Positions 9,678 to 54,484 of a stretch of DNA of 64,000 nt are shown here, in pieces; the stretch's first letter is position 1, and the number at the start of each line of letters is the position of its first letter. The position numbers and the translations under genes were made by a program. The notes below the pieces were generated by a model that did no database searches, had not been told where the DNA came from, and saw only the letters and a list, made by a program, of their open reading frames with translations. This DNA is from Natronococcus sp. CG52. Its GTDB lineage: Archaea; Halobacteriota; Halobacteria; Halobacteriales; Natrialbaceae. The stretch covers positions 3,224,001 to 3,288,000 of the forward strand of contig NZ_CP099391.1 in the NCBI RefSeq assembly GCF_023913515.1. Reading direction: 5' to 3'.

Positions 9678-12600
9678 ATGAGTACGGACCACCAGGGCGA
9701 CGGTGACGCCACAGGGGACGGACGCACGATCCTGCTGATCGGCAGCGGGCCGATCCAGATCGGACAGGCCGCCGAGTTCGACTATTCCGGCGCGCAGGCC
9801 TGCCGAGCGCTTCAGGAAGAGGGTGCTCGAGTCGTCCTCGTCAACTCGAACCCTGCGACAATCATGACGGATCCGGAGATGGCCGACCGGGTGTACATCG
9901 AACCGATCACGACCGAGGCCATCGCGGAGATCATCCGCGAGGAGAACCCGGACGGCGTCATCGCCGGGCTGGGCGGCCAGACGGGACTGAACGTCACCGC
10001 CGAACTCGCCGAGGAGGGCGTGCTCGACGACTACGACGTCGAGATCATGGGGACTCCCCTCGATACGATCTACGCGACCGAGGACCGCGATCTCTTCCGC
10101 CAGCGCATGGAGAAGATCGGGCAGCCGGTCCCCGCGTCGACCACGATCGCGCTCGACGAGGGCGAGGAGGTCTCGGAACTGACCGAGGCGGACCTCGAGG
10201 AACGCGTCCAGGCGGCCGTCGACGAGGTCGGCGGCCTGCCGGTCATCGCCCGCACGACCTACACGCTGGGCGGCTCGGGATCGGGCGTCGTTCACGAGTT
10301 CGACGAACTCCTCCGTCGCGTTCGCAAGGGACTGCGCCTCTCGCGCAACAGCGAGGTCCTGATCACGGAGTCGATCGCGGGCTGGGTCGAGTACGAGTAC
10401 GAGGTGATGCGGGACGCCGACGACTCCTGTATCATCATCTGCAACATGGAGAACATCGACCCGATGGGGATCCACACCGGCGAGTCGACGGTCGTCACGC
10501 CCTCCCAGATCGTTCCCGACGAGGGCCACCAGGAGATGCGCACCGCGGCGCTGGACGTCATCCGCGAGCTGGGCATCCAGGGCGGCTGTAACATCCAGTT
10601 CGCCTGGCGCGACGACGGCACGCCGGGCGGCGAGTACCGCGTCGTCGAAGTGAACCCGCGCGTCTCGCGATCCTCGGCGCTCGCGTCGAAGGCGACCGGC
10701 TACCCGATCGCTCGCGTGACCGCGAAGGTCGCCCTCGGGAAACGGCTCCACGAGATCACGAACGAGATCACCGGCGAGACGACCGCGGCCTTCGAGCCCG
10801 CGATCGACTACGTCGTCACCAAGGTGCCGCGCTGGCCCAAGGACAAGTTCGACGACGTCGACTTCGAGCTGACGACGGCGATGAAATCGACCGGGGAGGC
10901 GATGGCCATCGGCCGCACCTTCGAGGAGTCGCTGCTGAAGGCCTTACGCTCGAGCGAGTACGAGCCCGACGTCGACTGGGCCGACGTCTCTGACGAGGAA
11001 CTCGAGGAGCGCTACCTCGAGCGTCCCTCCCCCGACAGACCGTACGCGATGTTCGAGGCCTTCGAGCGCGGCTACGACGTCGAGAAGGTCGTCGAGCTGA
11101 CGGGCATCTTCGAGTGGTACACCGAGCGGTTCGTCCGCATCGCGGAGTCGACCCGCGCCGCCCAGGAGGGCGACTTCACCGAGGCCGCCATCGCCGGCCA
11201 CACCAACGCGACGATCGCCGCGACGGCGGGCGGCGACGTCGACGTTGACACGGTCGAGCAGGAGGTGCCCGGCCGCACCTACAAGCAGGTCGACACCTGC
11301 GCCGGCGAGTTCGCCGCGGAGACGCCGTACTACTACTCCGCGCGCAAGTCGGAGTTCGAGTCGGGGCCGCTCGAGGGTGCGGCCGCCGCGGGCGAACTCG
11401 AGGTCGACCGCGACGTCGAGAGCATCATCGTGGTCGGCGGCGGCCCGATCCGGATCGGACAGGGCGTCGAGTTCGACTACTGTTCGGTCCACGCGGTCCA
11501 GGCGCTGCGCGACATGGGCATCGACGCCCACGTCGTCAACAACAACCCCGAAACCGTCTCGACGGACTACGACACCTCCGACGGCCTCTTCTTCGAGCCC
11601 ATAACTGCGGAAGAGGTCGCTGACGTCGCCGAGGCGGCCGACGCCGACGGCGTGATGGTCCAGTTCGGCGGCCAGACGTCGGTGAACATCGGCGATCCGC
11701 TGCAGGACGAGATCGACCGCCGCGGGCTCGACTGCGAGGTCGTGGGGACTTCCGTCGAGGCGATGGACCTGGCGGAGGACCGCGACCGGTTCAACGCGCT
11801 CATGGACGAACTCGGCATCGCCCAGCCCGAAGGCGGCGCCGCCCACAGCAAGGAGGAAGCGATGAAACTCGCCCACGAGATCGGCTACCCGGTGCTCGTG
11901 CGCCCCTCCTACGTGCTCGGCGGCCGCGCGATGGAAGTCGTCTACGACGACGAGGAACTCGAGCGCTACATCGAGGAAGCGGTCCGCGTCTCGCCGGACA
12001 AGCCGATCCTCGTCGACGACTTCCTCGAGGACGCGGTCGAACTCGACGTGGATGCCGTCGCGGACGGCGAGGACGTCCTGATCGGCGGCGTGATGGAACA
12101 CGTCGAGGCCGCGGGCGTCCACTCTGGCGACTCAGCCTGTATGATCCCGCCGCGTTCGCTCGACGACGAGACGCTCGCCCGCGTGCGCGAAGTGACGGAG
12201 GATATCGCCAGCGCGCTCGAGACGGTCGGACTGCTGAACGTCCAGCTCGCCGTTCGTGACGGGGAGGTGTACGTCCTCGAGGCGAACCCGCGCTCCTCGC
12301 GCACGGTGCCGTTCATCTCGAAAGCCACCGGCGTCCCGATCGCCAAACTGGCGGCCAAGGTCATGGCCGGCAACTCGCTCGCCGACCTCGCGGTCGAGGA
12401 GCAGATCCCCGAGCAGACCTCGATCAAGGAGGTCGTTCTGCCGTTCGACCGCCTGCCGGGCTCCGATCCGCGTCTCGGTCCGGAGATGAAATCCACAGGC
12501 GAGGTCATGGGCAGCGCCGACTCCTTCGGCAGAGCCTACGACAAGGCCCAGGACGCGACCGGCAAGCCGATCCCCGAATCGGGCACCGCGATCATCGACC

Positions 12601-12911
12601 TCTCGGCCGACAAGTTCCCCGATCCGGACACCGATGCGGGCGAGGAACTGGTCGAGGGCTTCACCGACCACTTCGATCTCTGCGAGGAGATCGACCTCGT
12701 ACGGGCCGTCAAGGAGGGCGGCGTCGACCTCATCGTCTCGCGGGACCGCGACCTGCTCGAGATCGCCGTCGAGGAGGATGTTACCTACTTCTCGACGCCC
12801 GCGAGCGCGAAGGCCGCACTCGAGGCGCTCGAGGCGAAGGACGAGCCGATCGACGTCCAGCCGATCACCGAGCGGCCGAAGCGGGTCGGCGAGTGGGGCC
12901 GCTCGAACTGA
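9678..12911 (+). CDS. carB: Carbamoyl-phosphate synthase large subunit
   Basis: A 1077-residue protein, the full length for CarB. It makes carbamoyl phosphate from bicarbonate, two ATP and ammonia delivered by the CarA glutaminase subunit, feeding pyrimidine and arginine synthesis. The two homologous ATP-grasp halves are evident: GSGPIQIGQAAEFDYSG at about 18-34 and GGGPIRIGQGVEFDYCS at about 587-603, each with its GGQT motif. An oligomerisation segment lies between about 400 and 550, and the C-terminal 140 residues form the MGS-like allosteric domain. carA is not in this window, whereas many genomes place it next to carB. A hairpin followed by a T-run ends the transcript at about 13068-13096. 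Confidence 0.97.
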   Translation: MSTDHQGDGDATGDGRTILLIGSGPIQIGQAAEFDYSGAQACRALQEEGARVVLVNSNPATIMTDPEMADRVYIEPITTEAIAEIIREENPDGVIAGLGGQTGLNVTAELAEEGVLDDYDVEIMGTPLDTIYATEDRDLFRQRMEKIGQPVPASTTIALDEGEEVSELTEADLEERVQAAVDEVGGLPVIARTTYTLGGSGSGVVHEFDELLRRVRKGLRLSRNSEVLITESIAGWVEYEYEVMRDADDSCIIICNMENIDPMGIHTGESTVVTPSQIVPDEGHQEMRTAALDVIRELGIQGGCNIQFAWRDDGTPGGEYRVVEVNPRVSRSSALASKATGYPIARVTAKVALGKRLHEITNEITGETTAAFEPAIDYVVTKVPRWPKDKFDDVDFELTTAMKSTGEAMAIGRTFEESLLKALRSSEYEPDVDWADVSDEELEERYLERPSPDRPYAMFEAFERGYDVEKVVELTGIFEWYTERFVRIAESTRAAQEGDFTEAAIAGHTNATIAATAGGDVDVDTVEQEVPGRTYKQVDTCAGEFAAETPYYYSARKSEFESGPLEGAAAAGELEVDRDVESIIVVGGGPIRIGQGVEFDYCSVHAVQALRDMGIDAHVVNNNPETVSTDYDTSDGLFFEPITAEEVADVAEAADADGVMVQFGGQTSVNIGDPLQDEIDRRGLDCEVVGTSVEAMDLAEDRDRFNALMDELGIAQPEGGAAHSKEEAMKLAHEIGYPVLVRPSYVLGGRAMEVVYDDEELERYIEEAVRVSPDKPILVDDFLEDAVELDVDAVADGEDVLIGGVMEHVEAAGVHSGDSACMIPPRSLDDETLARVREVTEDIASALETVGLLNVQLAVRDGEVYVLEANPRSSRTVPFISKATGVPIAKLAAKVMAGNSLADLAVEEQIPEQTSIKEVVLPFDRLPGSDPRLGPEMKSTGEVMGSADSFGRAYDKAQDATGKPIPESGTAIIDLSADKFPDPDTDAGEELVEGFTDHFDLCEEIDLVRAVKEGGVDLIVSRDRDLLEIAVEEDVTYFSTPASAKAALEALEAKDEPIDVQPITERPKRVGEWGRSN

Positions 12912-13067
12912 TCGGTCCGCAGTCCAACTGATTCGACAGCGAGCTGACTGCTGATTACTCGTCTATTCAGCCGGAGGGCGTACCGCTGCGGTCGGACCAC
13001 AAGTGTTGCACCCGCGAGCGATCGACGGGAGCGGGCGGCCTCCTCGCGAGTGAAGCGAGCGAGGGTT

Positions 13068-13096
13068 CGGAAGCGCTGCACGCTTCCGGTATTTTT
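13068..13096. terminator. Hairpin with T-run between carB and the ABC permease gene
   Basis: A perfect 8-base stem (CGGAAGCG / CGCTTCCG) with loop CTGCA lies at 13068-13088, followed by GTATTTTTC. It is placed to end carB transcription, with the convergent permease gene finishing at 13105. Just upstream (13042-13063) is a GC palindrome, CTCGCGAGTGAAGCGAGCGAG, of the kind seen elsewhere in the window. Confidence 0.5.
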
Positions 13097-13104
13097 CATC
13101 GAAG

Positions 13105-14766
13105 TCAGTCGAACCTGTACAGATCGAACGTCTCGAGCGCGTACAGGTACGAGACCGGCGGCGCGAGGACGCCGACGGCGAGAACGGTCCAGGCGGCGAC
13201 GGTGAGCTGACCGGCGGTAACCGCGAGGTCGGGCGTGGACGCCCAGGCGGCGGTCGCCGTGAGCACGGCGGCGATCGGTTCGGCCGCGTCGGCGTAGAGG
13301 ACGACCGCGGCGGCCGCCGGGAGGAGAATTGCGAGCGAGTAGAGGAGGAAGGCGGTCTTGCTCGGCACGACGGCCTCGCGGTTGTTCGTGACGTTGACGC
13401 TGCCGAATCGGGGGAACGCGGTGCCGATGCCGGTCGCGAGCGCCGGTGTGACGACGGTGCCGACGACCGTACCGGCGACCAGTATCGCGGTGTGCTCGAT
13501 CGAGAGCGGGCTGACGACTCCGAGCAGGAGTGAGACGGGGAGTCCGATCGGAACCGCGACGAGTGAGCCGGCGACAACCAGCCCGGTGATCGCCTGTCGT
13601 CCGGTGAGCGTCGAGGTGACGACGGCCGGCAGCGCCCGGCCGAGGTCACCGAGCGGGTTGAGCGTAAACAGGACACCGGCCGCCCAGACGGCGTACAGCG
13701 AGAGGAAAACGGCGACGTACGACGGGACCGTTCCGCTCCGGACGATTCCCTGGACGAAACCGATCGCGCCGAGCAGCGGGTAGGCGACGTACACCAGTCG
13801 GATCGGGGCACGTCTGGTCCGACGGATCGCGGTGAGCGTCACCGTCCGAACCGGGCGGCCGAGCCCGCGTGCGAGCGCATCGGCGAGCCGGCTCGACGAG
13901 TCGGCCGTCGCCGACCTCTCCTCGTCGTCGAACCGTGCCGGATCGGCGAACCAGTGCACCCGCGCGGAGGCGATCGCGATCGCGAACGCAGCCGCACTGA
14001 CGAGTGCCGTCCCGATCACCGCACCGACGATCGTGGCGCTCGAGGCCGGAACGTTCGGAACGCCGGCCAGCAGGAGGTGGCCGGGCCAGCCGAGCGGACC
14101 GTCCTGAAGCGCGACGAACAGTTCGCCGACGACCAGATCGAACCGGCCGGTTGCGATCGCCCCGAAGTAGAGCCCCCAGAACGCGACGAACAGTACCCAC
14201 CGGTAGCGGGCGATCGGTTCGTAGACGGTGACCAGGTGTCGAACCCAGATGCCGAGCACGAATCCGAGCGGAACGGCGGTAAGGAGCGCGAGTACGACGA
14301 CGAGCGCGGCGAAAAGCACCGGCAGGACCGTTCCCGCACCGACGGCGAACGCACTCGAGAGTAAGACGGCTGGCGGCACCAGCCAAACGCCGAACAGCAG
14401 CATTTCGGCGCCGATAACGCCGACGGCGACGTTTCGAACGGACGTCGAGACGAGCAGAAAGGCCGACTCGTCGGGATCGGTTGCCGCGGTAAACGCCCGT
14501 ATTCCGGCCATGACGAGCAGAGCGAGCCAGCCGACCGCAGCGCCACCGGTAACGACCTCCGTTGCGAGTGCGGCGCTCTCTGCGGTAACTGCCCCGGCGA
14601 AGTGCTCTCCGAGCGCAGGAAGCAGGTAGCCGCCGGCGACCGTGATCGAGCCGAAGACGAACAGCGCGAGCAGTGCCATCAACAGCAGTTTCGTCCGCTG
14701 GGTTGCCATCGCACGAACCGTTCGCCGAAACTCCGTCCTGGCGACGGTCAGCGGAACGCGCGTCAT
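13105..14766 (-). CDS. ABC-2 type exporter permease, large single-chain
   Basis: A 553-residue protein with about twelve hydrophobic segments, long and very hydrophobic, with a charged cytoplasmic loop in the middle (about residues 255-300, containing FDDEERSATADSSSRL). This length suits two ABC-2 type transmembrane halves joined in one chain. It is divergent from the ATP-binding gene at 15009, 242 bases apart, the most likely partner. The start at 14766 (MTRVPLTVARTEFRR) is preferred to a frame opening 75 bases earlier because basic residues followed directly by helix 1 are typical. The substrate is unknown. Confidence 0.75.
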   Translation of the reverse strand: MTRVPLTVARTEFRRTVRAMATQRTKLLLMALLALFVFGSITVAGGYLLPALGEHFAGAVTAESAALATEVVTGGAAVGWLALLVMAGIRAFTAATDPDESAFLLVSTSVRNVAVGVIGAEMLLFGVWLVPPAVLLSSAFAVGAGTVLPVLFAALVVVLALLTAVPLGFVLGIWVRHLVTVYEPIARYRWVLFVAFWGLYFGAIATGRFDLVVGELFVALQDGPLGWPGHLLLAGVPNVPASSATIVGAVIGTALVSAAAFAIAIASARVHWFADPARFDDEERSATADSSSRLADALARGLGRPVRTVTLTAIRRTRRAPIRLVYVAYPLLGAIGFVQGIVRSGTVPSYVAVFLSLYAVWAAGVLFTLNPLGDLGRALPAVVTSTLTGRQAITGLVVAGSLVAVPIGLPVSLLLGVVSPLSIEHTAILVAGTVVGTVVTPALATGIGTAFPRFGSVNVTNNREAVVPSKTAFLLYSLAILLPAAAAVVLYADAAEPIAAVLTATAAWASTPDLAVTAGQLTVAAWTVLAVGVLAPPVSYLYALETFDLYRFD

Positions 14767-15008
14767 CGGCTTCTCCCACCGACGAACCAGTAACGGCGTG
14801 GCGTTCTGGGTACCATGACCGATAGCCCGTCCCGCATCCAATAAACAGTTCGGATACTGTCATACCCCCGGTCCGGCCGCTCCGTCGTCCAGAGATAGCG
14901 TGCTGGGTGTCGAGTTCGACCCCTCTCGAGAGAATGATTCGGTTCGAGCGGCACAATCGATTATAATTCCAACATGTTGTGGTTTTACGTAGAGTGCAGC
15001 GAAACGAG

Positions 15009-32357: not shown

Positions 32358-32965
32358 GCGCGATCACCTCCGCTCGAGCGGTCGCTTCCGGAAGATTCCA
32401 GGTCTTCCGACGTTCGCCTCGTTTCACTCGGCTCACCGCCGTCGGAGCGCACCTCCGACGAGGATCGCGAACCGTCCCCGGAGCGCTTCGCGCTCCGACG
32501 CGGATCGCGCTCGCTTCGCTCGCGCTCGCCGTTGGTTCGCTCACCGCCGTCGGTCGCGACGTCGGCGTCGGCGCTCCGCGGCGGCTGCATGCGATCCGCG
32601 AGCCGTCGGAACGCGGCCCAGTGGATCACCACCATCACGATGATGAAGATCCCCATGATCACGTCGGCGAAGTGGATCAGGGCGATCAGCGCGTTGAGCA
32701 CCGGCTCCGTGTTGCCGGCGACCCACTCGGAGCCGATCCCGCCGCCGCCGACCGTCGGTCGAACGCGCATGACGGTCTGGTAGAACGGCCCCTGGAAGAG
32801 CCAGACGGAGCCGACCGCGACGACGACGCTCGTGACCGCGGCGATCCAGAACGCCGCCCTGTCGGAGAGTCCGCCCGTCGCCTCGTCGGTCGTCGCCCGC
32901 GGATCGGCCGGCCGGTCGGAGCCGCCGTCGCGTTCCGCGTCGGAGTGTGTCGGCTCGCCGGTCAT
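32354..32965 (-). CDS. Small membrane subunit of the formate-dehydrogenase-like complex, with palindrome-expanded tail
   Basis: A 203-residue protein with two or three hydrophobic helices (about residues 38-62 and 92-118; VSVVVAVGSVWLFQGPFY, ADVIMGIFIIVMVVIHW). It sits between the ferredoxin and cytochrome b genes and overlaps each by four bases. From about residue 140 the protein turns into low-complexity Ser/Arg/Asp/Glu sequence, encoded by the tandem GC palindromes at 32441-32530. Function: presumably a membrane anchor; I do not recognise a named family. Confidence 0.75.
   Translation of the reverse strand: MTGEPTHSDAERDGGSDRPADPRATTDEATGGLSDRAAFWIAAVTSVVVAVGSVWLFQGPFYQTVMRVRPTVGGGGIGSEWVAGNTEPVLNALIALIHFADVIMGIFIIVMVVIHWAAFRRLADRMQPPRSADADVATDGGERTNGERERSERDPRRSAKRSGDGSRSSSEVRSDGGEPSETRRTSEDLESSGSDRSSGGDRA
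32441..32530 (-). repeat. Cluster of GC-rich palindromes inside a coding sequence
   Basis: Hairpins in a row: GTCGGAG-n5-CTCCGAC at 32441-32459, GGAGCG-CTTCG-CGCTCC at 32480-32496, and a run of GCTCGC/GCGAGC units to about 32527. The first has the same arms as the hairpin in the broken gene at 54160-54175. They are in the last third of an open frame, so the palindromes are translated. Confidence 0.5.
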
Positions 32966-54040: not shown

Positions 54041-54484
54041 ATGGGCGGCACCTACGTCCTCGCGATCGGCGTCGATCGGGGAGATCGAGTTCGCGGCCGA
54101 AACGCACGCTTGCGTCGGCAGCGCGTTCGGGCCCGGCGGTTTCGCTCGGCTCGACCGCCGTCGGAGTGCTCCGACGAGGTCTCACTCGCGCTGCTCGCGA
54201 GACCGCCATCGCGAACTGGCTCGAGGGGAACGCGAGGTGCGTCACTGGCACGTCGACTACCTGCTCTGCCACGAGGCGACGAGCCTCGCGGCGACCGCAC
54301 GGTTCCCCGACGCCGACCGGGAGTGCGAACTCGCGAGTGCGTCCCCGGGAAGGCGGTTCCCGACTTCGGGGCCTCTGACTGCGACTGTGCGGCCCACCTG
54401 CTCGAGACGCCCGGCCTCGAGACACTGCTCGAGGCGGCCGAGGGCGCCGCCGGCGTCCTCGAGACCGAGAACGAACTGGGGTGA
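54041..54484 (+). pseudogene. DUF123/GIY-YIG-like nuclease gene, broken by frameshifts and a palindrome insert
   Basis: The frame starts MGGTYVLAIGVDRG at 54041. The same gene then continues in a second frame (FAAETHACVGSAFGPGGFAR, from about 54089) and, after a region with the hairpins at 54160-54204, in that second frame again as REVRHWHVDYLLCHEATSLA. It returns to the first frame for AVPDFGASDCDCAAHLLETP up to the stop at 54482-54484. Together they spell a complete DUF123 protein of about 120 residues, so at least two one-base shifts plus an insertion of about 60 bases have inactivated it. Confidence 0.7.
54160..54204 (+). repeat. Palindrome insert in the broken DUF123 gene
   Basis: GTCGGAG-TG-CTCCGAC at 54160-54175 is followed by GGTCTC ... 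GAGACC around CTCGCGCTGCTCGCG to 54204. Within the DUF123 protein these bases lie where the family needs only a short loop between FARLDRRR and the next conserved segment, so they appear to be an insertion. Confidence 0.5.

Follow-up and report, generated by a model that had tools for sequence, protein, structure and literature searches.

The hairpin block that lies within the DUF123 (PF01986) gene of the window, by which we denote the whole stretch of 64,000 nucleotides that was analysed, is likely to be a single copy of a palindromic element that occurs dispersed in haloarchaea and looks mobile. It constitutes a true insertion in DUF123 and in other genes, both of its hairpins covary, and copies of it occur singly, in tandem, and nested within one another. 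The original prediction, which was made from the sequence of the window, was right in the main and is partly confirmed, whereby it was wrong about the cause of the frameshifts, the completeness of the encoded protein, and the loop in which the hairpins were thought to lie. Its wider claim of a palindrome that inserts into genes has good support.

The DUF123 Gene of the Window Is Decayed and Carries an In-Frame Insertion

The window belongs to a Natronococcus genome of 4.74 Mb on three contigs (G000), in which a genome profile search yielded a single PF01986 match, located at the window locus (47.8 bits). The frame-2 reading of this locus scored 54.3 bits against PF01986, which is above the curated cut-off (25 bits), and translation placed the N-terminus in frame 1, the middle part in frame 2, and the C-terminus again in frame 1. 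The frame translations and an alignment with the orthologue from the congener G004, in which 341 of 390 aligned bases are identical, gave the following features; a second element copy in the window is included.

54041–54484, plus strand: DUF123 (PF01986) pseudogene, frame 1 open only via mutually cancelling indels
54041–54078, plus strand: segment A, original frame, MGGTYVLAIGVDR (frame translations and G004 alignment)
54078–54083, plus strand: 28-bp and 1-bp deletions relative to G004, first frameshift
54083–54334, plus strand: segment B, second frame, reading in frame across the hairpin insertion
54153–54159, plus strand: GACCGCC, left flanking copy
54160–54207 (equally 54153–54200), plus strand: 48-bp two-hairpin element in its '+' orientation
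54160–54175, plus strand: hairpin H1, GTCGGAGTGCTCCGAC
54178–54204, plus strand: hairpin H2, stem GGTCTC/GAGACC, loop ACTCGCGCTGCTCGC
54201–54207, plus strand: GACCGCC, right copy, which is the element end
about 54334–54352, plus strand: 2-bp deletion and 1-bp insertion, second frameshift (G004 alignment)
54353–54484, plus strand: segment C, original frame, GASDCDC... to the stop codon at 54482–54484
13037–13091, minus strand: second element copy, intergenic, 39.5 bits

The three segments in two frames that had been reported are thus present, as PF01986 is found in two frames, but they do not add up to a complete protein, since about 10 residues (the PLSLEVGAL region of G004) are missing; the 3' end also differs from that of G004. 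The frame is broken twice by indels other than the hairpins, namely by the deletion of about 29 bp and by small indels. Since the net indel change is a multiple of three, an ORF of 147 codons is still open. The insertion itself comprises 48 bp and is in frame, and therefore is not the cause of the frameshift. Hence, the description of the gene as destroyed holds for the frameshifts (54078–54083 and 54334–54352), but is not supported for the in-frame hairpin. The insertion and the other indels, in whichever order they arose, are marks of a decayed gene. DUF123 was matched in 85 of the 125 genomes of the host's family and had no match in the other 40, and split or partial matches were also observed elsewhere (G031:C11:75296-75517, G054, and G062), which together argue that DUF123 is often lost.

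Both hairpins lie exactly where the original prediction had placed them, and the insertion extends to 54207. Due to a 7-nt ambiguity (GACCGCC), two placements of the 48-bp insert are equivalent. The orthologues of near relatives had been named as the informative comparison, and the hairpin is indeed absent from 7 of 8 congeners: G001 to G007 are without the 48 bases, and at their position G008 carries a 50-bp version. The fold alone is unremarkable, with 14 of 200 shuffled sequences folding as well or better, and it is because of the family and the empty sites that the block is judged to be real. The insertion point lies between R49 (nearly invariant) and H50 (invariant). A short loop had been suggested for the relatives at this point, but the predicted structure of a congener's intact DUF123 protein (37 sequences, pLDDT 94.6) puts it inside the helix of residues 45–54. 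According to this model, an insert of 16 residues probably harms the protein, even in frame. A sequence comparison with solved structures found no DUF123 relative, and a Foldseek search with the model gave no significant fold match; a resemblance of DUF123 to GIY-YIG proteins received no support here. In G008 and G049, the frame-breaking 50-bp form is the sole lesion seen in DUF123. As the two genes otherwise look intact, splicing or translational bypass of the 50-bp form was considered for them.

The Insertion Belongs to a Dispersed Family of Two-Hairpin Elements

Near-exact genome searches with the element recovered the window copy alone, so that a covariance model was needed. A pattern search found matches in 17 of the 125 genomes of the host's family. 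Of these 17 sequences, 5 lie within DUF123 and 8 at the 3' end of a gene that we take to be threonine-synthase-like (together 13). In seven loci (L045, L049, L051, L052, L053, L056, and L059), the threonine-synthase-like gene ends within the element copy, which is the source of the stop codon. The five DUF123 copies served to build the covariance model R1 and hence match it by construction. R1 matched 121 of the 125 genomes at E ≤ 0.1 (561 matches altogether), whereby the E-values are rough and the weakest matches at this per-genome threshold include chance ones; at E ≤ 0.001, 164 of the 243 genomes of the order were matched, with up to 23 copies per genome. Among 148 genomes drawn from the phylum, R1 matched 12, all within the order, and none of the matches listed lies outside the order. 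A search of Rfam at gathering score yielded 0 matches over the window and nine loci, and viral contigs gave no match to one strict pattern.

The alignment comprises 70 copies from 63 searched loci (66 distinct rows), and 93.0% of its pair cells are standard pairs. Changes on both sides of a pair were counted in 156 cells, whereas shuffled alignments gave 42.3 ± 5.3 and slid ones no more than 14, whereby the alignment was fitted to the two-hairpin structure and the counts lean towards it. From these covariation counts, we conclude that both hairpins were kept during sequence drift. The consensus consists of C[A/G]CC, hairpin 1 (about GTCGGAGC..GCTCCGAC), GAG, hairpin 2 with a variable stem and a loop of about CTCGCTTCGCTCGC, and CNNC, and the insert mostly measures 48 to 57 bp. 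Besides single copies, there are tandem copies (L255, L205) and nested ones, such as in L248 and L250 (read by eye), where one element lies within the hairpin-2 loop of another. The copies studied are mostly the best-scoring of the matches listed and thus are not a random sample.

The second copy in the window (13037–13091) is located 13 bp from the end of the minus-strand ORF 13105–14841 and 125 bp from the end of the plus-strand ORF 9678–12911, whereby the two ORFs converge. A run of A (gaaaaaCACC or alike) precedes the copy in L071, L076, L198, L207, and L282. Such copies, like the one at 13037–13091 just past a stop codon, are perhaps terminators. A further match in the window at 32437–32476 (plus strand; 23.5 bits) is not significant (E 0.94 genome-wide) and lies in the Ser/Asp-rich end of a 203-codon ORF.

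Copies Are Inserted in Frame in Conserved Genes

Empty sites are also found in other genes. The 51-bp ileS copy of G000 is absent from all 8 congeners, the nearest of which shares 94% identity across the protein query; in G007, ileS carries a different insertion close by. For kae1, matched in 123 of 125 genomes, filled and empty sites were distinguished by match length and aligned for 30 genomes: 14 genomes are filled, with inserts of 39 to 63 bp, and 109 are without an insert of that size. The kae1 inserts are all multiples of three in length and lie at the same turn, and some are strongly diverged.

The flanks of 85 copies from the host's family were classified by a codon-composition test devised for this analysis, which assigned 35 copies to same-frame flanks, 4 to shifted frames, 21 to noncoding regions, 24 to edges, and 1 to opposite-strand flanks. 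The window copy was counted as noncoding, since its frames are broken. The copies were recounted (n = 126) after L174 and L177, both above E 0.001, had been dropped from the 85 and 43 copies of other families had been added. In this recount, the 34 in-frame copies from the host's family have no lengths other than 48, 51, and 57 bp, whereby the divisibility of in-frame lengths by three is partly circular. The four frame-shifting copies are all 50 bp long and all lie in DUF123, and the noncoding copies mostly have 50 bp as well (12 of 21 in the host's family and 22 of 33 elsewhere).

The host genes by best NCBIfam match are ileS, argH, acnA, elp3, metG, and argG; this comparison was run on fragments, with ileS, acnA, and argG under the whole-protein cut-off. 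As further hosts, kae1 and uvrA were identified by their match to solved structures, the relatives being gapped at the insert (16 aa in Kae1, 18 aa in UvrA). The encoded peptide is DGVSASDASGGSSDESDG-like. Outside the host's family, a copy is present in an S9 peptidase gene on a plasmid of Halorussus salilacus. All 17 distinct in-frame sites, which were grouped by eye on the encoded peptides, are antisense to the element's '+' strand (p = 1.5e-5). An absolute orientation rule was rejected, because the DUF123 copy, a tandem pair in L166 (G000; by eye), and the tandem copies of L255 lie the opposite way.

L166 (1501–1552; G000:C1:1118249-1118300) harbors two tandem elements that are seemingly in frame in the '+' orientation (VEHGSTSPDSHARQDA...), within a gene that presumably resembles a cobalamin-pathway methyltransferase. 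L255 (514–670 and adjacent) carries three tandem 51-bp copies and a divergent one in frame, at NAVEHG, in a gene which we take to resemble a histidine kinase ATPase domain. The gene's own codons form a similar palindrome at this place, which may be where the element originated. L260 contains two separate in-frame copies (700–760 and 1201–1252) within one ORF.

The ends of the element can be read from the kae1 pair G048/G049, which shows TACGACGACGGCG-element-TTCCC versus TACGACGACGGGG-TTCCC. On the gene strand, the element accordingly starts with TCTCC, ends with GGYG, and is placed 3' of a GNNG tetranucleotide. On the '+' strand, the right tetranucleotide is C..C, corresponding to the GNNG side, in 107 of 126 copies, and the left end is CGCC or CACC, corresponding to the element's own end GGCG or GGTG, in 97 of 126.

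Mode of Spread and Alternative Explanations

For the spread of the mobile-looking element, we propose that it would be copied, on the other strand, as hairpin DNA, which probably is single-stranded, and that its insertion would occur 3' of GNNG, a tetranucleotide that usually reads GGCG, and would leave no long target duplication. The own end GGYG would recreate the target, which would explain the tandem arrays. The frame-keeping lengths of 48, 51, and 57 bp would survive in essential genes as Ser/Gly/Asp-rich linkers, and the 50-bp form would break genes such as DUF123. On balance, we lean towards an extended reading, according to which haloarchaea possess a protein-coding, mobile palindromic element of their own, with two hairpins in about 50 bp. 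Its 48-, 51-, and 57-bp forms would insert at Asp-Gly codons (GAC GGC G), always in the same phase, and would remain in essential enzymes as linkers rich in Ser, Gly, and Asp, whereby the same hot-spot sites would be used again and again. A single element would in this way disrupt dispensable genes and also extend essential proteins.

Anatomically, the element resembles IS200/IS605-type ends or REP/RAYT systems. It is possible, if doubtful, that the element constitutes a terminal-only (PATE-like) derivative of an IS200/IS605-type transposon that is moved in trans by a Y1 (HUH) transposase. A pair of palindromes within about 50 bp, the presumed lack of a long target duplication, and a short target correspond to the 52-bp terminal-only PATE of Haloquadratum, as far as the accessible part of its description goes (PMC3119063). 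However, PF01797 (Y1) had no match in G000 and is likewise absent from G031 (19 copies; 81% complete), G148 (16 copies), and G029 (9 copies). The search for shared ends covered 30 Y1 loci with 1.5-kb flanks and detected no element copy and nothing above 20.3 bits, which tends to argue against an IS200/IS605 origin. A link to Y1 transposases thus found no support, as they do not track the element.

We regard as similarly doubtful a spread by hairpin-templated template switching or ectopic gene conversion in replication, which would require no dedicated enzyme. The ileS copy (L299) and G000:177098 (L161) share a tract of 78 nt with 94% identity including the flanks, whereby the H1 loop is inverted, and flanks are common to several copies of G287 and to several of G031. 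The 78-nt tract reaches beyond the element ends, and this sequence pattern suggests ectopic, hairpin-mediated copying in at least one case. However, it was the element alone that was inserted at ileS, kae1, and DUF123, and its ends are conserved.

It is improbable that the hairpin was ancestral in DUF123 and was precisely lost in most lineages via slippage between the GACCGCC repeats. Precise loss is in general promoted by direct repeats and hairpins, and the same site is filled in five genomes from three genera (G000, G008, G049, G099, and G107); G096 has the element elsewhere in DUF123. Orthologues sharing the hairpin had been named in the original prediction as evidence against an insertion, and such sharing exists in form, as G008, G049, G099, and G107 have it at the same site. 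However, each of these genomes requires a separate change on the tree, and therefore the sharing does not support an ancestral native loop. For every one of the five same-site rows, a near relative is empty (G003/G004, G001, G048, G095, and G102), and many losses would be needed because 46 of 52 rows are empty. The DUF123 tree, calculated from 52 sequences with the element removed, requires six changes for all six filled rows and five for the same-site rows. In the AU test, from whose five-row comparison G096 was left out, a single clade of the five same-site rows was rejected (p = 6e-61), as was a grouping of G000 with G008 (p = 0.002).

Since five same-site insertions need five changes on the tree, the DUF123 site was probably hit repeatedly by the element. 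The number of hits expected at one given base is 0.0001, a crude value derived from the 561 family matches under uniform targets and with shared copies taken as separate events. Repeated hits could also be mimicked by short tracts that were exchanged between species. A kae1 tree of all 14 filled genomes and 16 of the 109 others requires 11 changes, 3 of which are forced by well-supported branches, which is weak support. A flank that mimics the right end of the element was rejected as hot-spot cause (27 sites versus 1115 control positions, p = 0.18), with only the G049 and G008 flanks beating all their own controls, and the flanks of the 27 in-gene sites fold no better than controls (p = 0.95). 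Thus, the repeated use of the DUF123 site lacks an explanation from its flanks.

There is little probability, too, that the element is a conventional MITE that is mobilized by a DDE transposase and generates a 7-bp target duplication. GACCGCC flanks the window copy on both sides, and near-repeats of 7 nt (GACGGCG/GACGGTG) occur at ileS and kae1, so that the repeats at these three sites could be 7-bp target duplications. However, inspection of the aligned copies revealed no terminal inverted repeat, the near-repeats owe their right-hand GAC to the paired end of hairpin 1, and the nested copies in L248 and L250 are without such a repeat. Finally, it is very unlikely that errors of sequencing or assembly produced the frameshifts and the insertion, since, even though a single assembly is concerned, a 28-bp deletion and a 48-bp family element are atypical errors and other genomes have a like insertion at the site.

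Comparison With Known Palindromic Elements

In Rickettsia and several other bacteria, palindromic elements have been described inside essential proteins, and their movement and toleration still call for an explanation. The more interesting part of the present observation lies outside the window, where many haloarchaea have the element as an in-frame passenger in their essential genes; a mobile-looking element thus seems to lengthen proteins as well as to break genes. Natural before/after pairs are available in archaea that can be grown and manipulated, in the form of sister species that differ by the insert in ileS, kae1, and DUF123, so that target, ends, frame rule, and protein effect become directly testable. 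Furthermore, the annotation of haloarchaeal proteins could treat such linkers as insertions.

In the literature, mainly open full texts and these in part, we found no such element described within haloarchaeal genes, which is weak evidence of novelty; in PMC3733652, the word "archaea" occurs in the reference list only. The following comparisons refer to the accessible parts of the cited papers. The Haloquadratum walsbyi PATEs, or terminal-only IS605-type elements, are likewise haloarchaeal, have a shortest form of about 50 bp with palindromes near both ends, and show a short target at one end and no target duplication (PMC3119063). The nested copies described here agree with the latter, whereby the 7-nt repeats or near-repeats at DUF123, ileS, and kae1 are ambiguous in this respect. 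Unlike for PATEs, no related Y1-bearing transposon was found here, and the accessible PATE accounts do not mention in-frame residence in essential genes (PMC3119063).

The element is a dispersed, multicopy, short palindromic repeat with in-frame copies in unrelated conserved genes, and in this it corresponds to the Rickettsia palindromic elements (RPEs; PMC10969869) and the intragenic GTAG/CGTC REPs (PMC3733652), which are short palindromic repeats in conserved genes as well. The host genes reported for RPEs and REPs include uvrA and tRNA synthetase genes, and 20–30 residues are added when the repeats are dimeric or grouped (PMC10969869, PMC3733652). RPEs reside in frame, as the element does (PMC10969869), CGTC REPs likewise are without known transposase, and about the same recB site is used by REPs in two Xanthomonas species, comparable to the probably reused sites of the element (PMC3733652). 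An unpaired CGTC/GTAG REP tag at one end of a single stem-loop was not seen on inspection of the consensus, which has two stems, CRCC and CNNC ends, and the GTC of H1 in paired state. Compared by description, RPEs measure about 150 bp, whereas the element accommodates two dissimilar hairpins, always in the same order, within about 50 bp; REPs are single tagged stems that are often paired, whereas the element combines two stems with a GNNG-type target and resides in haloarchaea.
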